Source of the DNA: Citricoccus sp. SGAir0253
Lineage (GTDB): Bacteria; Actinomycetota; Actinomycetes; Actinomycetales; Micrococcaceae
Length of the DNA: 64,000 bases
Direction: 5' to 3'
Assembly (NCBI RefSeq): GCF_005877055.1
Contig: NZ_CP039424.1
Span: 3,162,001-3,226,000 of the forward strand
The notes under the pieces are model-generated. The model did no database searches, was not told where the DNA came from, and saw only the letters and a program-made list of their open reading frames with translations. Positions 50,618 through 63,515 of the stretch are shown here, piece after piece. How positions within the stretch are numbered: position 1 is the stretch's first letter; every line of letters begins with the position of its first letter. The translations under genes and the position numbers were made by a program.

Positions 50618-52108
50618 TCATCTCACCTCCACGGTCGCCATCATCCCCAGGTCCTCGTGGTCCAGGATGTGGCAGTGCAGGACGGTGCGGCCGGCGATGC
50701 CCTCGAAGGCCACGCGGACGGTGACCCGGCCGAGGGCCGGGACGGTGACGACGTCGGCCCACCGGGGCTCGTCCCCCGCCCCGTCATCCCCGCCCCCGCC
50801 GGACACCACCTGCATCGGCCACACGTGCAGGTGGACCGGGTGGTCCATGGGCGAGGAGTTCACCAGGGTCCACTCCTCGACGTCCCCGAAGGCGGGATCG
50901 ACGTCGGTGCGCCCGGCGTCGAACTCCCGCCCGTTGACGGTGAAGGACATCATGGACCCGTCCCCGCGCATCATGGCCCCGCCCATGCCGCCCATCGCGA
51001 AGTCCAGGGTCCGCCGGCGGGCCACCTCCACCCCGCGCAGGTCCTGCGGCTCGGGACCGGCGGGCACGTCGGCCAGGGCCGGGGCGCGGCCGCCGGTGAC
51101 CTCGAGGGTGAGCAGGTCGACGGGGCCGGTGCCCCCGGGGCGGCGCCCGCCCATCATGCCGGGCATGGCCCCGCGGTCCACGGGGGACGCCACGAGGGTG
51201 GAGGTCCCCTCGGCGGCCTCGACCAGCAGGTCCACGCGGTTGCCCGGGGCCAGCTCCACCGTCCCGGCCTCGACCGGCTGGTGCAGCCGTCCGAGGTCGC
51301 GCGCCAGCAGTCGCACCGACTGGCCGTCCAGGCCGAGACGCAGGAAGCGCGAGGGGCACGCGTTGATGATCCGCCAGCGCTCCCGCTCCCCGGGCGCGGC
51401 CGCGAGCCGCGGCCGGCGGCGCCCGTTGACGAGCACCAGGGATCCCTCCCGGCCCATCATCCGCTCCATCACGGACGGTTCGGCGAGCTCGCCGGCGGCG
51501 GTGAGTGCGAGGTCCGAGACGACGAGGACCCGCTCGCGGCTCACCGGCGGCGGAGCGGCCTCGCGGACGACGATCGCGCCGTAGAGCCCAGCCGCGAGCT
51601 GCTCGGCCACGGTGCCGTGGTGGTGGGGGTGGTACCAGTAGGTGCCGGGCGGGTGGTCGGGGGGCAGCACGAACTCGTAGTCGTGCGTGCCGCCCGGCTC
51701 GATCGTCACGAACGGGTTGTCCCCGGCGCCCGCGGGGGACACGTGCAGGCCGTGGACGTGGAGGTTCGTGGGGGCTCCCAGGCCGTTGGTCATCCGGACC
51801 CGGAGCGTGTCCCCGGGGGAGAGCTCCAGGGTGGGCCCCGGCACCGTGCCGTTGAAGGCCCAGACGTGGGCGGTCCGGCCGTCGATCCCGACGGCGGCGG
51901 GAGCGGCCTCGAGGTCCAGGTCGAGCACGCCGCCGGCGCTCGTGAGGACCTCCGGCTCGCCCCAGTCCCCCCCGCCCGTGCCGCCGCTGCCACCGCCGGG
52001 TCCACCCCGCGGACCGGTCCCCCACAGGAGCCCGGCGGCGCCGGCGGCGGTCATCGCCCCGCCGGCCAGCCCCCAGCCGAGCACCTGCCGCCGGGAGGGC
52101 GGGCTCAC
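50618..52108 (-). CDS. Multicopper oxidase (CueO/copper oxidase-like) with Tat signal
   Basis: 496 residues. Twin-arginine signal SRRQVLGWGLAGGAM at residues 5-19. Copper ligands in order: LHVHGLHV, YWYHPHHHGTVAEQ, PVHLHVWPM and the terminal VLHCHILDHEDLGMM (HCHxxxHxxxxM with axial Met). A Met-rich segment FAMGGMGGAMMRGDGSMM resembles the Cu(I)-binding region of CueO. It would oxidise Cu(I) to Cu(II) outside the membrane using O2. The GTG at 52108 overlaps the SHOCT gene stop. Confidence 0.92.
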   Translation of the reverse strand: MSPPSRRQVLGWGLAGGAMTAAGAAGLLWGTGPRGGPGGGSGGTGGGDWGEPEVLTSAGGVLDLDLEAAPAAVGIDGRTAHVWAFNGTVPGPTLELSPGDTLRVRMTNGLGAPTNLHVHGLHVSPAGAGDNPFVTIEPGGTHDYEFVLPPDHPPGTYWYHPHHHGTVAEQLAAGLYGAIVVREAAPPPVSRERVLVVSDLALTAAGELAEPSVMERMMGREGSLVLVNGRRRPRLAAAPGERERWRIINACPSRFLRLGLDGQSVRLLARDLGRLHQPVEAGTVELAPGNRVDLLVEAAEGTSTLVASPVDRGAMPGMMGGRRPGGTGPVDLLTLEVTGGRAPALADVPAGPEPQDLRGVEVARRRTLDFAMGGMGGAMMRGDGSMMSFTVNGREFDAGRTDVDPAFGDVEEWTLVNSSPMDHPVHLHVWPMQVVSGGGGDDGAGDEPRWADVVTVPALGRVTVRVAFEGIAGRTVLHCHILDHEDLGMMATVEVR

Positions 52109-52374
52109 GGCCCGTTCCCCTCCAGCAGGCGCCGGCGCTCCTGGAACTCCTCGGCGCTGATCTCGCCGCGGGCGTAGCGCTCCTCGAGGATCTCGCGGGC
52201 CCTCGAGGGCGCCGCGCCGGCCGGCGGGGTGCGCGGCCCGTCCTGGCGGCCCGGGCCACCGCGGGAGACGACCAGGACGAGGAGGGTCACGAGGACGACC
52301 ACGCCCACGATCATCAGGATCCAGAACAGCCAGGCCCAGCCCATGCCCCAGCCCATGCCGTCGCCCCACATCAT
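52105..52374 (-). CDS. Small membrane protein with SHOCT domain
   Basis: 89 residues. Trp/Gly/Met-rich N-terminus (MMWGDGMGWGMGWAW), one membrane helix (about 15-38) and a C-terminal SHOCT motif (REILEERYARGEISAEEFQERRRLL). SHOCT proteins of this layout are frequent next to copper-efflux genes. The Met residues could bind copper. GGAGG lies five bases before ATG 52374. GTGA overlap with the multicopper oxidase. Confidence 0.88.
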   Translation of the reverse strand: MMWGDGMGWGMGWAWLFWILMIVGVVVLVTLLVLVVSRGGPGRQDGPRTPPAGAAPSRAREILEERYARGEISAEEFQERRRLLEGNGP

Positions 52375-52405
52375 GACGTCCTCCTCGGTCCGTCGTCCGC
52401 GCGCC

Positions 52406-52840
52406 CTACGGCGCGCCCTGGAGGTCCCCGTCGCTGTTGCGCAGGGACTGCAGCACCGCGCGGAGCCGGGTGCCGGCGTCGTCCGCCACCTCCTGGACGG
52501 CCCCGCCCCCGCTCAGGGTGACCATGGCCTGCGGGTCGATGGCCTCCACGGTGGTCGCGCCCGCGGTCGCGGAGCGGCGCACGACCACGTTGCACGGCAG
52601 CAGGGCGCCCATCTCGGGCTCCGCGGCGAGCGCCTTGCTGGCCAGCCCGGGGTTGCAGGCGCCGAGGATGACGTAGTCCCCGACGGCGTCGGCCGCCTCC
52701 GCGCCCAATTTCTCCTTGAACGTCGCCCGGACGTCGATCTCGGTCAGGACGCCGAAGCCCTGCTCCGCGAGGGCCTCGCGCGTGCGCTCGACGGCGTCCT
52801 CGTACGGCAGGTCGACGGTGACGGCGTGGGTGTAGGTCAT
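52406..52840 (-). CDS. DUF302 domain protein
   Basis: 144 residues. DUF302 core: DAVERTREALAEQGFGVLTEIDVRATFKEKLG-type opening, YVILGACNPGLASKALAAEPEMGALLPCNVVV with two cysteines, and VEAIDPQAMV. DUF302 proteins are common near heavy-metal genes; function not established. GGGAGA lies six bases upstream. Has its own promoter (TTGACG at 52913-52908) or may read through from the Cys-rich gene. Confidence 0.86.
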   Translation of the reverse strand: MTYTHAVTVDLPYEDAVERTREALAEQGFGVLTEIDVRATFKEKLGAEAADAVGDYVILGACNPGLASKALAAEPEMGALLPCNVVVRRSATAGATTVEAIDPQAMVTLSGGGAVQEVADDAGTRLRAVLQSLRNSDGDLQGAP

Positions 52841-52883
52841 CGGGGTCTCCCTCTCCTCGGGGGTTCGTCTCGGCGTCGTCTCA

Positions 52884-52913
52884 ACGATCGATCGGCGGCG
52901 GGAGGGCCGTCAA
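52884..52913 (-). promoter_or_regulatory. Promoter of DUF302-SHOCT-oxidase genes, with palindrome
   Basis: -35 TTGACG (52913-52908), 18-bp spacer, -10 GATCGT (52889-52884). The -10 overlaps the perfect palindrome CGATCGATCG (52885-52894), a possible operator. Confidence 0.45.
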
Positions 52914-52941
52914 TCGGCGGGGTGCGCGCACGTCCGCGGGC

Positions 52942-53352
52942 TCAGCCCAGGGAGGCGAGCAGGTCCGCGCAGGCCTGCTCGCACCGGCGACACGCCTCCG
53001 CGCACACCCGGCAGTGCTCGTGCATCTCCGCGTGGGAGGCGCACTCGTCCCCGCAGGTCCGGCACGCGACGCGGCAGGCCTCCAGCACGGCGCGGGTCAC
53101 CTCGAGGTTGTCACCGGTCTGCCGGGACAGCACCGCCCCGGTCGTGGCGCACACGTCCGCGCAGTCGAGGTTGCGGCGGATGCAGCCGCGCAGGTCGGCC
53201 ACCATGTCCTCGGCCAGGCACGCGTCCGCGCAGGCGGTACAGGACTGGGCGCACTGGAAGCACGCCTGGATGCACTCCGCCAGCTTCTGGCGGTCGATGT
53301 CCCCCAGGTCCTTCGGGTAGGTCTCCAGCATGGAGGTGACGTGATGGGTCAT
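52942..53352 (-). CDS. Four-helix bundle copper-binding protein (Csp/DUF326-like)
   Basis: 136 residues with 16-18 cysteines in C-x2-3-C patterns along helices: CIQACFQCAQSCTACADACL, CIRRNLDCADVC, CRVACRTCGDECASH and CRVCAEACRRCEQAC. This is the pattern of Csp copper-storage proteins, which bind many Cu(I) ions inside a four-helix bundle. No signal peptide, so a cytosolic Csp3-like store. AAGGAG lies seven bases before ATG 53352; the long upstream extension of the frame is rejected. Confidence 0.92.
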   Translation of the reverse strand: MTHHVTSMLETYPKDLGDIDRQKLAECIQACFQCAQSCTACADACLAEDMVADLRGCIRRNLDCADVCATTGAVLSRQTGDNLEVTRAVLEACRVACRTCGDECASHAEMHEHCRVCAEACRRCEQACADLLASLG

Positions 53353-53415
53353 GACATGCTCCTTCCTCGGTTCCGTGCCGGGACGGACCGGCCGGAGCCG
53401 GCCGCCACGCACCTG

Positions 53416-53476
53416 ACGGTAGGCACCGGCCGGCGCGGGCCTCAAGGGCTCGTCCGTGAAGGTTCCGTGAAGATGA
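53416..53476 (-). promoter_or_regulatory. Promoter of the Csp gene with CopR-like direct repeats
   Basis: -35 TTGAGG (53445-53440), 18-bp spacer, -10 TACCGT (53421-53416). Just upstream, on the plus strand, TGAAGGTTC-CG-TGAAGATGA (53457-53476) forms two 9-bp direct repeats with an 11-bp period, resembling the TGAAGATTT repeats bound by CopR in Corynebacterium (from memory). Confidence 0.5.
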
Positions 53477-53543
53477 CCGGGGACGGGCGACGGCGCCCCA
53501 CCGGGCCCGCGGGCCCCCGTCCCGCGACGGCCCATGGTCGGCC

Positions 53544-56888: not shown

Positions 56889-57857
56889 ATGACCCCGACC
56901 ACCCCCTCCACCCCGCCGTCCGTGCTGCTGCTGGGCTTCGGCGCGATCGGCCGGCAGGTCGCGCTCCGGCTCGCCCCGGAACGGGAGGCCGGGGCCCTGC
57001 GGCTGCGGGCCGCCGAGCGGAAGGTCGCCGCCCACCGGGACCGCGTGCTGCCCGGCGTCGGGATGGTCACCACCGGGGACGAGGCCGGCTGGCCGCGCTG
57101 GGAGGAGGCCCTGGCGGAGGCGGACCTCGTGGTGGAGTGCGCCGGCGTCGCGGCCGCCCGCGAGTACGGGCCGGCCGTCGTGGCCGGCGGCACGGACCTC
57201 GTGCTAACGAGCGTGGGCGCCCTGGCGGATCCGGAGACCGCCCGGCGCCTGCTGGCCGGCCCCGGGCGCCTGTGGGTCACCGCCGGGGCGATCGGCGGAT
57301 TCGACGTGCTCGGTGCGGCCGCGGACGCCGACGGGCTCGACGACGTGCGCATCCGCACCACCAAGGTGCCCACCTCGCTGGTGCAGCCGTGGATGTCCGA
57401 GGCCGAGGCCGCCACGCTGCGCGCCCTGCGCCCCGGCGACGAGCCGGTGACCGTGTTCGCCGGCGACCCGGCCGCCGCGATCGAGCGGTTCCCCGCCAAC
57501 GTCAACGTGGCCATCGGCCTGGCGTGGGCCACGCGGGGCCGGCCGGCCGCCGTCGGGACCACCCCCGCCGAGTCCGCCCCCGAGAGCACGGGCGGGCAGG
57601 CTCCGGCGCCCCAGGACGCCCCCGGGGCCGCCGAGGCCGCCCTGTTGCAGGCCTCCCTGGAGCGGGTGCGCGTGGAGCTCGTCGCCGATCCGTCCGTGGT
57701 CCGCAGCCGCCACGAGGTGCTCGCCACGGGCCCGGCCGGACGCTTCGAGCTGTCCTTCGAGTCGGCCCCGAGCCCCGAGAACCCGAAGACCTCGGGCCTC
57801 ACGGCGCTCTCGGTCACCCGGACGGTCCGCGAGGCCCTCGCCGCCCGCCACGGCTGA
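56889..57857 (+). CDS. Aspartate dehydrogenase-like (NadX/DUF108) protein
   Basis: 322 residues. Rossmann GFGAIGRQVALRL, DLVVECAGVAAAREYG, VTAGAIGGFDVLGAA and the family's FPANVNVAIGLAW segment, then ETAGPAGRFELSFES-type C-terminal strand and SPENPKTSGLTALSVTRTVREAL, all as in L-aspartate dehydrogenases of the DUF108 type. A ~30-residue Pro/Gln/Ala insert lies at about 218-247. It would convert aspartate to iminoaspartate for NAD synthesis or amino-acid catabolism. AAGGA lies seven bases before ATG 56889. Confidence 0.86.
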   Translation: MTPTTPSTPPSVLLLGFGAIGRQVALRLAPEREAGALRLRAAERKVAAHRDRVLPGVGMVTTGDEAGWPRWEEALAEADLVVECAGVAAAREYGPAVVAGGTDLVLTSVGALADPETARRLLAGPGRLWVTAGAIGGFDVLGAAADADGLDDVRIRTTKVPTSLVQPWMSEAEAATLRALRPGDEPVTVFAGDPAAAIERFPANVNVAIGLAWATRGRPAAVGTTPAESAPESTGGQAPAPQDAPGAAEAALLQASLERVRVELVADPSVVRSRHEVLATGPAGRFELSFESAPSPENPKTSGLTALSVTRTVREALAARHG

Positions 57858-57883: not shown

Positions 57884-57944
57884 GTCACGTACACGACCGG
57901 CGTCGCGTCTCGCGGCGTGTCGCACCCTCCGTCGTGCACGTGAC
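57884..57944. repeat. 61-nt palindromic element, copy 1
   Basis: Arms GTCACGTACACGAC (57884-57897) and GTCGTGCACGTGAC (57931-57944) pair at 13 of 14 positions. The 33-nt interior can form an inner hairpin CGTCGCG/CGCGGCG (one T-G pair) with a TCT loop. Same length and layout as copy 2, 97 bp away. Confidence 0.75.
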
Positions 57945-57980: not shown

Positions 57981-58041
57981 GTCACGGACACGACCGGCGT
58001 CGCCTCCTGCGGCGTGTCGCCCCCTCCGTCGTGTCCGTGAC
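57981..58041. repeat. 61-nt palindromic element, copy 2
   Basis: Arms GTCACGGACACGAC (57981-57994) and GTCGTGTCCGTGAC (58028-58041) pair perfectly over 14 bp. Stem position 7 is G-C here and T-A in copy 1, a compensatory change; the 33-nt interior is nearly identical to copy 1. Sits between convergent genes, so may also act as a terminator. Confidence 0.75.
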
Positions 58042-58076: not shown

Positions 58077-61000
58077 TCAGGAGACGGCGGTCTGCGCCGT
58101 GCCGGCGGACAGCGCGGCGACGGCCTCGTCCGCCCAGGGCAGCGCCAGGTCGGCGGCGAGGTCGCGACCGCCGGCGTCGTGCCGGCCGTACGCCCCGACC
58201 CGCTCGGCGCCGCACTCCCGCAGAGCCTGCTCCAGCACCTCGGAACCGCGCGAGTAGGTCGCGTGGTACGAGCGGTCGCCGAGGCCGAACACCGCGAACC
58301 GCAGCCCCGTGAGGTCCGGCCGGGCGGCGAGCAGCCCGGCGTGGAAGGCCCGGGCGGACGTGGGCAGTTCGCCGTCGCCGTACGTCGAGCTGATGAGCAG
58401 GTGGGGGCGGGACGGGTCCAGTGCCCCCGGGACCGCGGGGTCGACGCCGGCCAGGTCCACCACCTCGACCGCGTACCGGTCCGCGAGGTGGCCGGCCACC
58501 TCCTCGGCCACCAGCTCGGCGTTGCCGGACTCGGTGGCGAACAGGACGGTCAGCGGAGGCCGGTCCGCTCCGGCGGCGTCGCCGGAGGCGAGGCCGGACG
58601 CGGCGTCGCCGGAGGCGAGGCCGGACGCGGCGTCGCCGGACGCCGGGGCATCCGTGGTGGTCCCCGCCGCGGTGGCCGTGCCGCCGGGTTCCGTGCCCCG
58701 GGCACCGGCGGGGGCGTGGTGCGGGGCGGCGGTGGCCGAGGCGGCGAGCAGGCGCAGGTGCCGCCGGTCGAGCAGCTTGGCCCGGGCCCGGCCGACGGGG
58801 GCCGCGGCCCGTTCCACCGCGTCGATGCGCCGCCAGCCGTCGTAGTCGGTGGCGCGGCCCAGGTAGGGCCGAAGCTCCACGAGCCCGGCCCGCCGCCGCC
58901 CCGCCGCCGGGACGCCCGGGGTCCCGGCGAGAGCCGTGTCCGCGCCACCGCCGCCGCCACGGCCATCTCCGCCGTCCACGCCCCCGCCCTCGCCCGCGCC
59001 CTCGCCGAGATCCTCCGCAATGGCCTCGGCGAGCTGCCGGGCATCGGTCCGCTGGGACGGGATGGTGCCACGCGGCCCCCGCCGGGCCCAGCCCGCGACG
59101 TACAGCCCCGGTCCGACCCGCCCGGACTCCCGGGCCTCCTCCTTGAGGGCCGGCAGGGCGGCCACGAGGTCGTCCTCGCCCGCCCGGAAGCCGATCGCCG
59201 TGACGACGCTGTCCACCGCGAGCCGCACGCCCGGTTCCGCGCCGTCGGCCGGGCGGTCGCAGGAGGCGATCTCCAGGCCGGTCACGCGGGACCGCTCGCC
59301 CTCGCCGGACGGGGCGCCGCCGCCGTCCGCCCCGGCGCCACGGCCCGCGGCGTGCCGTGAGACCGGCGTCGCGTCGTCACCGAGGACCCGCGTGGGCGCG
59401 TGGCCGAACCACCAGTGGACGCGGAGCCGCGCGGGGGCCGGATGCCCCTCCTCGCCCGGGGCCTCCGCGCCACCGTTCACCTCGCCCGGGTCCCCGCCCG
59501 GATGCCCGGCGCCCGCGCCGGTCCTGCCCCGGAGCAGCTCGGCGACCACGGCCGAGCGGGGATCGCCGGCCGCCCCGAGCTGCCCGGCCTCCACGCCGTG
59601 CACCACGTGCTCCACCCCGGGCAGGTCCAGGACCTCCCGCAGCATCACGGGGTCGAACTTCGCCCGCGCCGGCAGGGACCGGCCGACCACGTGCACGGTG
59701 GTGAGCCGCCCGGCCAGGGCGGCGTGGGCGGCGTCGTGCACGTCCGAGCCGTCGAGGTCCCGGGTCGTCTTGGCCAGCAGGCGGACCACGTCCATGGCCA
59801 CGTTGCCCATCCCCACCACGGCCGTGGTCCCGCCGAGCTCCGGGACGGCGGTGGCCGCGCCCCGGGCTCCTCCGCACGTCTCCGGCTCCGCGTTGAGCCA
59901 GCGGGTGAGCTCGCCCGAGCCGACCACCCCGGGCCGGTCCGCCCCGGGGACGGCCAGCGCCGCGTCCCGGCGCAGTCCCGTGGCGAGCACGACGGCGTCG
60001 AACGCCCCGCGCAGCTGCTCCAGGGTCAGCTCCGCGCCCTCGGCGTCCTGCGAGCGCACGGCCGGGGCGGACTGGGCGGGCCGGCCGTGCAGCACCACGT
60101 CCTCGGCCGCGGCGCCGGTGTGCACGCGGGTGGAGCCGACGAAGTGGACCCCCTCCTGCTCGAAGAGGCGGGCGAACTGGTCGGCCACCGCCTTGGTGCC
60201 CTGGTGGTCGGGGGCCACACCGTAGCGCACCAGCCCGTAGGGCTCGGGGCGGGCGTCGAACACGGTGACCTGCGCGCCGGGCAGCCGCCGGCGGACCGCC
60301 TGCGCGGTGTAGCAGCCGGCCGGCCCGGACCCGACGACGGCCACCTGCGGCCCGCGCGCGGCCCCGGGCTCCGGGGCACCGTGCCCGGAGCGCCCGGCGA
60401 CCGGCACGGCCGGGGCCCCGGCCGCCGTCGCGCCCCCCGAGGACCCGACGCCCCAGGTGACGGGGAACTCGTCCATGCCGCGGAAGACCCAGCCCCCGGC
60501 GCGCGGGGGGCGCTCCGGGTGCAGGTCCAGGCCCGGCAGGGCGGCGAACAACCGCGGCAGGGCGACGTCGGCCACCTCGGCCCGGGCGACCCAGGCGCCG
60601 AGGCACACGTGCACGCCCTTGCCGAAGGCCAGGTGCGCGCCCTCGCCGGAGCGGGTGACGTCGAACCGGGCGGGGTCGCGCCACTGCGCCTCGTCCCGGT
60701 TGGCCGAGAGCAGGCAGATGCCGAGGCGGGCCCCGGCCGGCAGGTGGACCCCCTGGAGGGCGACGTCCCGGGTGACCTGGCGGGAGTACATGCCGATCGG
60801 CGCCACCCAGCGGATGGACTCGTCGAACACGGCGTCCCACAGGGCGGGGTCGGCCTCCACCAGCCGGCGCTGGGCCGGGTCGCGCAGCAGGGCCCAGGCG
60901 GCCACCCCGATCGCGTCGCGGGGTTCGTTGAGGCCCCCGCCGATGGTCATCTTGAGGTTCGCCCGGATGGACTCCACCGGCATCTGGTAGTCCGGCAGGG

Positions 61001-61739
61001 CCACGAGCGCGGAGAGCAGGGAGTCGTCCGGGTGGGCGCGGTGCCAGTCGAGCATCTCGTCCAGGGCGGCGTCCACCTCGTCGAAGGAGGCCTCGCCCCG
61101 GGCCCACACCTCGGGGTCGTCCGCGTAGTTGCCGGTGGCGTCGATCATCGTCTGCGACCAGCGCTGCAGGTCCTGCTGGGTGACGTTGTGCAGGCCCGTG
61201 ATCGCGCGCAGGTTCTCCGCGGCGTAGGGGGCGGCGAAGTCCCACACGAGGTCGGCGCCGGGGCCCTTCTCCCGCAGCTCGGCCAGGTACCGGTCCGCGT
61301 TGCGCTCGAAGACCGGCCGCCAGGCGCGCTTGACCACGGAGGGCCGCAGCACCGGCTGCCACGCGCGGCGCTCCACGAGGTGGTCCGGGTCGTCCTTGCG
61401 CAGCATCGAGTGGCCCATGGCGCGGATCATCAACGATCCCCGCTCGTTGGCCGAGAACGTCTCCTGGTCCATCTCGGTGTCGTGCACCGCGGCGTAGGAG
61501 GTCACGAGGTAGCGGCCGACCGCGGGCACCCAGTGCACGCCGCCCTCGGCGCGCAACCGCTCGAAGACGGGGAACGGGTCCGCGTAGAGCTCCGGGATGG
61601 TGACCCAGTCGGCCACGGGGGCCGGACGGCCGGCGACGGCGGCCGGTCCGGTTCCCGCGCCCGGTCCCCGCGCGGGGGCGGCGGGCGCCGGGCGGGCGGG
61701 GGCGGAGGGCAGCGGGCGTGCGGCGACGGCGTCGGTCAT
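58077..61739 (-). CDS. Cytochrome P450 - FprA-type reductase - FMN flavodoxin triple fusion
   Basis: 1220 residues. (1) P450, about 45-440: E307-S-I-R310 (ExxR) and haem loop FGKGVHVCLG with Cys379; the I helix reads GGGLNEPRD, so Asn271-Glu272 replace the usual acid-alcohol pair. (2) FAD/NADPH reductase of the adrenodoxin-reductase/FprA type, about 464-915: VAVVGSGPAGCYTAQ, VVGMGNVAMDVVRLL, RGTIPSQRTDARQLAE. (3) Gly/Ala-rich linker with 9-residue repeats. (4) FMN domain, about 1062-1215: FATESGNAE, SSTYGDGELP, GLGDRSYHATYS. Electrons would pass NADPH-FAD-FMN-haem in one cytosolic chain. ATG one base after the HtaA stop (TGAGATG). Confidence 0.92.
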   Translation of the reverse strand: MTDAVAARPLPSAPARPAPAAPARGPGAGTGPAAVAGRPAPVADWVTIPELYADPFPVFERLRAEGGVHWVPAVGRYLVTSYAAVHDTEMDQETFSANERGSLMIRAMGHSMLRKDDPDHLVERRAWQPVLRPSVVKRAWRPVFERNADRYLAELREKGPGADLVWDFAAPYAAENLRAITGLHNVTQQDLQRWSQTMIDATGNYADDPEVWARGEASFDEVDAALDEMLDWHRAHPDDSLLSALVALPDYQMPVESIRANLKMTIGGGLNEPRDAIGVAAWALLRDPAQRRLVEADPALWDAVFDESIRWVAPIGMYSRQVTRDVALQGVHLPAGARLGICLLSANRDEAQWRDPARFDVTRSGEGAHLAFGKGVHVCLGAWVARAEVADVALPRLFAALPGLDLHPERPPRAGGWVFRGMDEFPVTWGVGSSGGATAAGAPAVPVAGRSGHGAPEPGAARGPQVAVVGSGPAGCYTAQAVRRRLPGAQVTVFDARPEPYGLVRYGVAPDHQGTKAVADQFARLFEQEGVHFVGSTRVHTGAAAEDVVLHGRPAQSAPAVRSQDAEGAELTLEQLRGAFDAVVLATGLRRDAALAVPGADRPGVVGSGELTRWLNAEPETCGGARGAATAVPELGGTTAVVGMGNVAMDVVRLLAKTTRDLDGSDVHDAAHAALAGRLTTVHVVGRSLPARAKFDPVMLREVLDLPGVEHVVHGVEAGQLGAAGDPRSAVVAELLRGRTGAGAGHPGGDPGEVNGGAEAPGEEGHPAPARLRVHWWFGHAPTRVLGDDATPVSRHAAGRGAGADGGGAPSGEGERSRVTGLEIASCDRPADGAEPGVRLAVDSVVTAIGFRAGEDDLVAALPALKEEARESGRVGPGLYVAGWARRGPRGTIPSQRTDARQLAEAIAEDLGEGAGEGGGVDGGDGRGGGGGADTALAGTPGVPAAGRRRAGLVELRPYLGRATDYDGWRRIDAVERAAAPVGRARAKLLDRRHLRLLAASATAAPHHAPAGARGTEPGGTATAAGTTTDAPASGDAASGLASGDAASGLASGDAAGADRPPLTVLFATESGNAELVAEEVAGHLADRYAVEVVDLAGVDPAVPGALDPSRPHLLISSTYGDGELPTSARAFHAGLLAARPDLTGLRFAVFGLGDRSYHATYSRGSEVLEQALRECGAERVGAYGRHDAGGRDLAADLALPWADEAVAALSAGTAQTAVS
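58575..58640. repeat. 27-bp tandem repeat in the fusion linker
   Basis: Two full 27-bp units (58575-58601, 58602-58628) and 12 bp of a third. They encode the 9-residue repeat SGDAASGLA in the linker ahead of the flavodoxin domain. Confidence 0.8.
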
Positions 61740-61740
61740 C

Positions 61741-62415
61741 TCAGGCGTCCTGGTCGGGGATCGGTCGTGGCGTGGGTCGTGGCGTGGGTCGGAGCGTGGG
61801 TTGCGGGCGCGTGTCGGCCGGGGCGGCGAGGTGCACCGCGAGGGGTGCCAGCGGCGTCCCCTCCCGGTAGTGGCCGAGGAACAGGTCGGCGCCGGCCTCG
61901 GTGAGCCGCGGGGCGGGATACGTGAGGACCGGCCCGCTCCGGACGGCCTCCCCGAGCTCGGCCAGGACCAGGCGGGTCCCCGGCTCGAAGGGATCGTCGA
62001 TCGTCAGCACCGGGCCCGCGGCGGGGGTGGGGCGGGCGTCGGGGACGTGGCGGGCCTCGAGCGCGGGCGCGGCGAGGGTGAGGGCGAGCAGGCCGTGGTG
62101 ACCGGTGAAGTGCACGGAGCCACGGCAGCGCAGCACGGGCTCCCCTGCGGCGGTCGCGGCCATGCCGTCCGGCTCCCGGCCGTCGGACGCGCCGTCGGCC
62201 TTCCCACCCTCGGCCACGGCGCCCGCGGCCGCGGCCGACGGGAAGGAGATCCGGCCGTCGGGGAGGACTGCGGCTCCGTCCTCGGCGTCGATGCGGCCGT
62301 CCGGCAGGCGGGACACGTAGGCGGCAAATCCCTCGTGGAAGGCCCACGCGAGGCCGCGGGGCGCCCCGGCCACGGCGCCGGTCCCGGTGGCGGAGGGTGC
62401 GGCAGTGGCGGTCAT
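61741..62415 (-). CDS. HtaA-domain protein (haem-binding type), cytosolic
   Basis: 224 residues. HtaA domain: GLAWAFHEGFAAYVSRLPDG with the conserved Tyr, GRISFPSA, then LRCRGSVHFTGHHGLLALTL with the conserved His, and PVLTIDDPF. In corynebacterial HtaA these Tyr and His bind haem (family knowledge). There is no signal peptide or sorting motif, so it should be cytosolic, unlike HtaA haem-uptake proteins. A Gly/Ala insert lies in the middle and the C-terminus has Pro-Arg repeats. Directly coupled to the P450 fusion. GGAG six bases before ATG 62415. Confidence 0.82.
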   Translation of the reverse strand: MTATAAPSATGTGAVAGAPRGLAWAFHEGFAAYVSRLPDGRIDAEDGAAVLPDGRISFPSAAAAGAVAEGGKADGASDGREPDGMAATAAGEPVLRCRGSVHFTGHHGLLALTLAAPALEARHVPDARPTPAAGPVLTIDDPFEPGTRLVLAELGEAVRSGPVLTYPAPRLTEAGADLFLGHYREGTPLAPLAVHLAAPADTRPQPTLRPTPRPTPRPIPDQDA

Positions 62416-62588: not shown

Positions 62589-63515
62589 ATGGACCACCCC
62601 TCGCCCGGCCCCGGCCCCCGGTTCACCCTGCGGCAGCTCGAGCTGTTCGTGGCCGCGGCCGAGCAGGGCTCCTTTACCCGGGCGGCCCAGCAGCTCTTCG
62701 TGACGCCCAACGCCGTCGCCCAGGCCGTGGGCGAGCTCGAGGGGATCCTCGGCGTGACGCTGGCCGTCCGCCGCCGGGCCCGGGGGCTGACCCTCACCCC
62801 CGCAGGGACGAGGCTGCTCGAGGGGGCCCGCGCGCTGCTGCGGCAGGCGACCGACCTGGGGCTCAGCGTCGGGGAGGGCGCCGGGGAGCCGTCCGGACCG
62901 GTCGCCGTCGGGTTCTACTCGACGCTGGCGCCCACGCTGGCCCCCGAGCTCTGGGAGCGGCTGGCCGAGCGTCACCCGGACGTGGAGCTGTCCGTGGTCG
63001 AGGGCACCACCGACGAGCTCGTGGACCAGCTGCACGCCGGCCGGCTGGACCTGCTGATCGCCTACGAGGTGGCCCTGCCGCCGGGGCTGGCGGTCCGCCC
63101 GCTCTTCACGGCACGCCCCTGGGTGGTCCTGCCCCGCCCACACCGCCTGGCCGGGGAACGGGCGGTGGACCTGCGGGACCTCGCGGACGACCCGCTCGTG
63201 CTGTTCGACCTGCCGCCCAGCGGCCGGAACACCCTGGAGCTGCTGCGCCGGCGCGGCGTCCGGCCGCGGATCGCGCACCGCACCACGGACTTCGAGCTCG
63301 TCCACTCGCTCGTCGGCCGCGGGATGGGCTACGGCATCCAGCTGCAGCGGTCCGTGGTGGAGGTCAGCCGGGAGGGGCGTCCACTGGCGATCCTGCCCAT
63401 CACGCCGGAGCCGGAAGCCGAGCCCGTGGTCGTCGCGTGGGCCGGGCAGGTGCCGCTGACCTCGCGCGCGGGGGCCGTCGTCGCGCTCGCGCGGGAGTGC
63501 CTGCCGGCGCGGTGA
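62589..63515 (+). CDS. LysR-family transcriptional regulator
   Basis: 308 residues. HTH FTLRQLELFVAAAEQGSFTRA with AAQQLFVTPNAVAQAVGELEGILG, then a LysR substrate-binding domain (VAVGFYSTLAPTLAPELWERL, LDLLIAYEVALPPGLAVRPLF, DDPLVLFDLPPSGRNTLELL, GRGMGYGIQLQ). Divergent from the HtaA-P450 operon with ~170 bp between, so it most likely controls it; the effector is unknown but may be the P450 substrate. AGGAG ten bases before ATG 62589. Confidence 0.92.
   Translation: MDHPSPGPGPRFTLRQLELFVAAAEQGSFTRAAQQLFVTPNAVAQAVGELEGILGVTLAVRRRARGLTLTPAGTRLLEGARALLRQATDLGLSVGEGAGEPSGPVAVGFYSTLAPTLAPELWERLAERHPDVELSVVEGTTDELVDQLHAGRLDLLIAYEVALPPGLAVRPLFTARPWVVLPRPHRLAGERAVDLRDLADDPLVLFDLPPSGRNTLELLRRRGVRPRIAHRTTDFELVHSLVGRGMGYGIQLQRSVVEVSREGRPLAILPITPEPEAEPVVVAWAGQVPLTSRAGAVVALARECLPAR

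Follow-up and report, generated by a model that had tools for sequence, protein, structure and literature searches.

Ten classes of cytochrome P450 (P450) systems are listed in PMC11173547, among them class III, in which the P450, a reductase containing flavin adenine dinucleotide (FAD) and a flavodoxin are separate proteins, class VI (P450-flavodoxin), class VII and class VIII. In the class III system of P450cin, cindoxin reductase and cindoxin, electrons pass from NADPH (reduced nicotinamide adenine dinucleotide phosphate) to the FAD reductase, then to the flavodoxin carrying flavin mononucleotide (FMN) and finally to the P450 (PMC9687028, PMC11173547). The Arthrobacter P450s 1232A24 and 1232F1 were placed in a proposed gene cluster with a flavodoxin and a flavodoxin reductase, and the title cited for this cluster (Klenk et al. 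2019) names papaverine metabolism (PMC9687028). We describe here a gene of Citricoccus sp. SGAir0253 which encodes a P450, an FAD reductase of the FprA type and a flavodoxin in this order within one protein. It is located in a stretch of 64,000 nucleotides (contig NZ_CP039424.1, positions 3,162,001 to 3,226,000), referred to as the window. Judged from its sequence, the product is likely to be a class III P450 chain (NAD(P)H-FAD-FMN-haem) joined in one polypeptide and probably acting as an aromatic O-demethylase.

The fusion is a genuine single frame. In the list of open reading frames (ORFs), it starts with ATG and runs for 1220 codons and a stop codon without internal stops, and the Pfam domains p450 (residues 301-389), Pyr_redox_2 (465-658) and Flavodoxin_1 (1065-1191), all above their curated cut-offs, follow one another along the protein. 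The initial annotation, made from the sequence alone, had proposed these three domains in this order and in one frame, and Pfam, phmmer and the single ATG frame agree with it; its coordinates were also correct, and the strand is now corrected to minus. In every block (20/20) spanning the frame and its linkers, the guanine plus cytosine content had its minimum at codon position 2 and its maximum, alone or shared, at position 3.

Relatives were sought by a single scan of a genome collection with six 8-residue query patterns (three from the P450, two from the FprA and one from the flavodoxin part). It returned 31 matching stretches, five of which encode relatives of the fusion; exact patterns of this kind pick up close relatives only, and these counts are no gauge of how common the fused or split forms are. 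The fusion relatives, all from Micrococcales, belong to Citricoccus sp. CH26A (L001), a Citricoccus metagenome-assembled genome (MAG; L002), a Micrococcaceae MAG (L003), Gulosibacter sp. 10 (L004) and Micrococcales bacterium 31B (L005). In all five, FprA comes after the P450 in the same frame, and the flavodoxin follows in the four complete ones (4/4 with all three domains in Pfam), the frame of L002 ending at the contig end ahead of the flavodoxin. Identity to the window protein was 71-91% in the P450 parts, 51-69% in the FprA parts (with linker 2) and 49-79% in the flavodoxin parts of the four relatives which reach it. A frameshift between the domains, which the initial annotation had named as a possible objection, was not found. 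That a frameshift, read-through or assembly error joins separate genes can practically be dismissed, because five relatives in separate genome records have the same single frame; the coding pattern also runs unbroken through both linkers, and no point speaking for such an artefact was found. In a plasmid collection (72,556 records), none of the 1300 matching records had a place covering 80% of the query, and the viral contigs searched with the query gave no match.

The P450 domain (residues 39-430) aligned with the solved P450 6g71 with an E value of 2.6e-164 (phmmer against solved structures) at 61.6% identity, and its next relatives among solved structures were the GcoA O-demethylase group (about 1e-42). 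We take 6g71 to be Arthrobacter CYP1232A24. P450s sharing more than about 40% identity are assigned to the same family, and the window P450 would thus provisionally belong to CYP1232, as far as 6g71 is identified correctly. The presence of both the haem-Cys motif and ExxR identifies it as a member of the P450 superfamily; the initial annotation had placed Cys379, Glu307 and Arg310 correctly, and all three are invariant in the six aligned fusions. The identity was 49-52% to P450s which stand alone on plasmids of Rhodococcus and Agrobacterium (L009, L010, L011), 41% to the P450 of L015 and 25% to that of a three-gene set (L008). The initial annotation had passed over the I-helix, where Asn-Glu replaces the acid-alcohol pair of most P450s. 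The motif (G/A)GG(L/I)NEP was found in 11 of the 12 aligned P450s (six fusions, 6g71, L009-L011 and L015); only the distant P450 of L008 lacks it. In the printed alignments, the chains of the GcoA group have QEP where the fusions have NEP.

The central domain was correctly recognized by the initial annotation as an FprA/adrenodoxin-reductase type; residues 568-737 aligned with adrenodoxin reductase 1cjc (phmmer, E 5.8e-38, the better of two stretches). Its end, put earlier at about residue 915, had to be moved to about 1008, because the C-terminal segment TDYDGW..ID..E..GR.R.K has its counterpart, in the alignment, at the C-termini of stand-alone FprA proteins. The segments GSGPAG (FAD), GMGNVAMD (NADP), GW..RGPRGTIP and TDYDGW..ID..E were recognized. 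The FAD and NADP motifs and the haem Cys are common to all six fusions, and the GW..RGP segment is kept with some changes among the relatives. The second Arg of what we take to be the NADPH motif of adrenodoxin reductase (RR) is replaced by Ser in the fusions and in three aligned stand-alone FprA proteins, so that the preferred donor may be either NADPH or NADH. By eye, the window copy contains extra low-complexity loop inserts. Linker 1, between the P450 and FprA, comprises 12-48 residues by motif borders. A long linker before the flavodoxin, across which the electron route was earlier supposed to fold back, is not a trait of the group: the R.R.K motif and the first flavodoxin residue are 33-36 residues apart in L003, L004 and L005, 54 in L001 and about 74 in the window (hand count), and part of this stretch can still be aligned with the ends of separate FprA proteins. 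The linker proper within it was estimated by eye at about 50 residues in the window versus about 20 in L005.

The last 167 residues alone, compared with solved structures, matched cindoxin 4oxx best (4.1e-23), followed by MioC (4.5e-12), whereas the best domain of the NADPH-cytochrome P450 reductase (CPR) or diflavin-reductase type reached 1.2e-10. The earlier assignment as an FMN domain is thus upheld, but the label CPR-like is not, cindoxin being closer among solved structures. The FMN loops TESGN, STYGDGELP and FGLGDRSY are present in the five complete fusions, some of them changed. No 2Fe-2S ferredoxin family was found among the seven Pfam families matched (E up to 1) or among the best 25 of 37 NCBIfam families. 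Nor was an NCBIfam family specific to the fusion found; the best 25 of these 37 matches were all far under their cut-offs. The features of the locus are summarized in the table.

Features of the fusion locus in the window (positions counted from the first nucleotide of the window)
Feature	Position	Strand	Evidence
Fusion gene, P450-FprA-flavodoxin, 1220 aa	58077..61739	minus	ORF list, Pfam, phmmer, alignment, codon-position G+C
P450 domain, residues 39-430	60450..61625	minus	phmmer to 6g71 and GcoA group; Pfam p450
I-helix Asn271-Glu272 replacing the acid-alcohol pair (GGGLNEPRD)	60924..60929	minus	Alignment
K-helix Glu307..Arg310	60810..60821	minus	Invariant in six fusions
Haem-ligand Cys379 codon (FGKGVHVCLG)	60603..60605	minus	Invariant in six fusions
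FprA/adrenodoxin-reductase-type FAD domain, residues ~466-1008	58716..60344	minus	Pfam, phmmer, alignment; domain end by eye
Low-complexity linker 2, residues ~1009-1062	58554..58715	minus	Alignment; relatives differ in length
Flavodoxin (FMN) domain, residues ~1063-1220	58080..58553	minus	Pfam Flavodoxin_1; cindoxin 4oxx
HtaA-domain protein, 224 aa	61741..62415	minus	Pfam HtaA 2.6e-13; profile; fold of L003 relative
Divergent LysR-type regulator	62589..63515	plus	Pfam HTH_1 and LysR_substrate

The fusion contains the FAD reductase and the FMN flavodoxin of a class III electron chain, but in one polypeptide instead of three separate proteins. It would share the electron route of the P450cin system, and among solved structures its flavodoxin domain matches cindoxin best; the P450 of the L008 three-gene set is only 24.6% identical to that of the fusion. 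Its closest solved P450, 6g71, is presumably 1232A24, which also has a flavodoxin and a flavodoxin reductase as partners. These partners are found in a proposed gene cluster (PMC9687028), whereas the fusion is one chain with an htaA gene upstream. XplA and XplB (class VI) have the same cofactors, and the acid-alcohol pair is lost there as well, but the flavodoxin of XplA is at the N-terminus of the P450 and the reductase is separate (PMC8081977). In the fusion, the flavodoxin is C-terminal and the reductase lies in the chain, which sets it outside class VI. The initial annotation had considered it a rearrangement of XplA/XplB-type partners; we read it as a fused class III chain, because its P450 groups with 6g71 and GcoA and its FMN domain with cindoxin. 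The reductase of P450 BM3 (CYP102, class VIII) is of the CPR type, with FMN before an FAD domain of the ferredoxin-NADP reductase fold. Like the fusion, BM3 begins with the P450 and unites haem, FMN and FAD in a single chain (PMC9687028), but the fusion has an adrenodoxin-reductase-type FAD domain ahead of the FMN domain and thus lacks the CPR-type diflavin arrangement of class VIII. CYP116B (class VII) and the P450 type of P. terrae KU-64, in which a ferredoxin is part of the single chain (PMC9687028), are also single-chain systems, but both have a 2Fe-2S ferredoxin domain (PMC9687028, PMC11173547); none was seen in the fusion, which is therefore not of class VII. GcoA (CYP255A) belongs to a related group of aromatic O-demethylases, whose aligned chains likewise have an acidic residue instead of the I-helix Thr (QEP), but the separate reductase of GcoA, GcoB, contains 2Fe-2S and FAD (PMC6021390).

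A P450-FprA-flavodoxin single chain is not among the ten classes in the excerpts of PMC11173547, and a description of this make-up was not found in the excerpts of PMC9687028 or in the open-licence literature searched, so that an earlier mention is possible. The excerpts of PMC11530827, on a P450 O-demethylase of the CYP199A group, contain nothing on fusions. A described class with the same three domains in this order, which the initial annotation would have accepted as a refutation, was thus not found in the literature searched. Judged from the sequence, what appears new is that one protein would contain the whole class III chain.

The cofactor motifs suggest that the protein is self-sufficient. 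NAD(P)H would reduce FAD in the FprA domain, and FAD would hand single electrons to FMN of the C-terminal flavodoxin domain, which on its flexible linker would dock on the P450 domain of its own chain or of a partner; the haem so reduced would activate O2. The likely substrate class is a methoxylated aromatic, e.g. methoxy-phenylacetate or a similar lignin- or alkaloid-derived molecule, which would be O-demethylated. The divergent LysR protein probably regulates the fusion operon, and the cytosolic HtaA-fold protein would act as an accessory. O-demethylation is favoured because the P450 is close to the 6g71/GcoA group and because L005 has a HpaD/HpaE set. There, genes for HpaD, HpaE and fumarylacetoacetate hydrolase lie about 2-7 kb from the fusion gene on the opposite strand (HpaD and HpaE at 4-7 kb), with NCBIfam scores of 433.7 bits for HpaD (cut-off 321.4) and 656.6 for HpaE (cut-off 638.35). 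On the far side, L005 encodes a MoaF protein, a thiamine-diphosphate enzyme and a flavoprotein resembling phenol-2-monooxygenase. The substrate in L005 is probably a methoxylated phenylacetate-like acid; the window locus is without catabolic neighbours among the genes checked, and the substrate of its enzyme may therefore differ. Near the fusion in L003 lie a gene for a TRAP solute-binding protein and a partial one for a thiamine-diphosphate enzyme. The neighbours tested in L001 and L004 (LysE, LysR, aminotransferase, amino-acid kinase, aldehyde-dehydrogenase-family, TetR, MFS and siderophore-interacting proteins) have no evident catabolic role. A gene annotated as protocatechuate 3,4-dioxygenase lies near the P450-2Fe2S-reductase operon of L009. 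The setting of the L009, L010 and L011 P450s in operons adjoining a LysR gene and the papaverine title cited for the Arthrobacter cluster also speak for this substrate class.

Several points weigh against an O-demethylating class III chain. No aromatic-degradation genes adjoin the window operon among the genes checked, and such genes were found only in L005 of the four relatives with flanking DNA (the genes of L001, L003 and L004 having been partly checked). Data on activity, cofactors or substrates were not found for any of the fused proteins. The whole-chain structure model, built from a six-row alignment, had a mean predicted local distance difference test score (pLDDT) of 45.5 and does not give the domain geometry, the flavodoxin part scoring mostly 68-89. 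The branching order of the fused members differs among the trees of the three parts, at weakly supported nodes. Finally, the exchange of the acid-alcohol pair for Asn-Glu leaves room for a peroxide-driven enzyme. According to this explanation, which we hold to be unlikely, the haem domain would run on H2O2 owing to the Glu that replaces the I-helix Thr, and the flavin arm would serve mainly to produce H2O2 from NAD(P)H and O2 instead of reducing the haem. It is in agreement with the occurrence of Asn-Glu in the six fusions, 6g71 and four stand-alone relatives. The replacement of Thr by Glu turned other P450s into peroxygenases, e.g. T252E CYP199A4, but no gain of peroxygenase activity resulted in CYP105D18 (PMC10750395). 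For SyoA, a related P450, the reference list of PMC13101465 gives a title which mentions haem peroxygenases as a rare enzyme class. However, the GcoA group has QEP at the same place, and yet GcoA runs on the NADH-fed reductase GcoB (PMC6021390). The redox motifs are moreover conserved across the fusions, and the stand-alone relatives L009-L011 keep their ferredoxin and reductase genes.

A reductive enzyme of the XplA kind, passing electrons to a nitro or halo substrate instead of O2, appears very improbable. The records of strain DN22, which we take from the strain to be XplB and XplA, did score in the search, but the XplA/B-type match was only 32.7% over three joined pieces. The cofactor set is that of XplA/XplB and the Asp/Glu-Thr pair is lost as in XplA (PMC8081977), whereas the P450 domain is near 6g71 and the O-demethylases of the GcoA group, and both the fused L005 and the stand-alone L009 lie near aromatic ring-cleavage genes. 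It is also rather doubtful that the protein represents a separate single-chain class which pairs with a cytosolic haem protein of the HtaA fold and whose I-helix Glu would enable one haem to use both O2 with NAD(P)H and H2O2 from its own flavin arm. We prefer the class III chain acting in O-demethylation.

As for the origin of this fused class III chain, its FprA-flavodoxin half aligned end to end with three two-gene FprA and flavodoxin pairs (L006, L007 and L008), and three-gene P450/FprA/flavodoxin chains were found in L008 and L019. Trees of the single parts, which took in 12 (P450), 9 (FprA) and 8 (flavodoxin) sequences, set the fused members apart from the split ones with FastTree support of 0.88, 0.99 and 0.94, respectively; this grouping fits one fusion event. 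The proposed 1232A24/1232F1 cluster would be the split form to expect before fusion. L009, L010 and L011 carry P450-2Fe2S-FAD reductase operons adjoining a LysR gene, and the redox arm was therefore probably exchanged in this P450 lineage. The FprA-type and flavodoxin genes of L006 (4968-6751) and L007 (4992-6610) overlap at their ends, with no annotated P450 in the stretch shown; a gene for the alpha subunit of a ring-hydroxylating oxygenase lies near the pair in L007.

The initial annotation had passed over the htaA gene upstream of the fusion gene. In five of the six loci, htaA overlaps or nearly touches the fusion gene: a gap of 1 base separates its end from the fusion start in the window and of 6 bases in L003, whereas the two overlap by 8 bases in L001 and by 4 in L004. 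The fifth case is a fragment in L002, a 72-aa htaA end with an 8-base overlap, which matched the end of the HtaA profile with an E value of 0.006 (17.6 bits, cut-off 24). In L005, htaA is absent upstream and the neighbour is a transporter. Pfam HtaA exceeded its cut-off in the four proteins from the window, L001, L003 and L004. A profile of these four sequences matched solved HtaA structures (6jsa, 1.5e-9; 8smu, 1.7e-9), to which the window sequence alone gave only E 0.37-0.61. Among five models predicted for the L003 protein, the best had a mean pLDDT of 81.6 (the others 75.4 to 35.7), and ranks 1-16 of a fold search with it were all HtaA, HtaB or ChtA chains. Tyr33, His106 and Tyr183, presumably the haem ligands of HtaA, are invariant in the four proteins; in a ten-row alignment, the His is replaced by Tyr in L016. 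The fold and these residues together identify an HtaA domain, for which haem binding is predicted. HtaA proteins are typically exported and located at the cell surface. A hydropathy scan of the proteins from the window, L001, L003 and L004 found no hydrophobic signal or anchor, in keeping with a cytosolic protein.

On plasmids, relatives of the L003 HtaA protein were found in 11 records, all of which were inspected. In three of them (H31, H32 and H40), the gene overlaps or touches an oxygenase-reductase operon, two of the three oxygenases being annotated as ring-hydroxylating (Rieske-type); in H41 it overlaps an acyl-CoA dehydrogenase gene, and in H33 about 50 bases separate it from a preceding alanine dehydrogenase gene. 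The remaining six, an Arthrobacter group (H34-H39), stand apart, five of them with a P450-ferredoxin-reductase set about 3-5 kb away on the opposite strand. A role limited to the haem of P450 is therefore unlikely, and we did not adopt the view that HtaA simply supplies the P450 with haem as a chaperone, the plasmid relatives adjoining Rieske-type and other operons as well. In L013 (2874-5453) and L017 (2874-5444), genes for a ring-hydroxylating oxygenase alpha subunit, a PDR/VanB reductase and an HtaA-domain protein overlap or touch, and the HtaA accessory would therefore not be confined to haem oxygenases. In Rhodococcus erythropolis R138 (L015, 2159-5465), a P450-2Fe2S-reductase-HtaA operon with NEP in the I-helix lies beside folate one-carbon genes; this P450 is perhaps an O-demethylase passing C1 units to folate.

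The start of the LysR-type gene at 62589 is a likely one, counted by hand, the ORF opening at 62397. LysR-type genes pointing away from the fusion were also found in L003 and L001 (in L001 by the substrate domain). On the other side of the fusion gene, two 61-nt palindromic repeats (57884-57944 and 57981-58041), 89% alike, sit between the convergent genes for an aspartate-dehydrogenase-like protein (56889-57857, plus strand) and the fusion. Both form strong predicted hairpins, the first at -33.2 kcal/mol (z -2.7) and the second at -38.2 kcal/mol (z -4.9), and the 25-base repeat core, allowing up to 3 mismatches, has only these two copies within the window; they are perhaps terminators or a repeat element. 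Farther away (50618-53535, minus strand), genes for a multicopper oxidase, a DUF302 and a DUF326 protein stand in a row resembling a copper-handling set.

Fusions of flavodoxin and flavodoxin reductase have been engineered to drive P450s (PMC5575160). If active as proposed, the Citricoccus protein would be a natural single-chain version of a flavodoxin-fed P450 chain. A review from 2022 described as unknown why bacterial flavodoxin reductase-flavodoxin fusions made no contribution to the diflavin module (PMC9687028). The fusion group offers a natural case for this question, its P450 being about 62% identical to one whose partners are described as separate (PMC9687028). If its proposed function is true, a one-gene aromatic O-demethylase would be handy for lignin use, and its cytosolic HtaA partner raises a question on a fold known from haem uptake.

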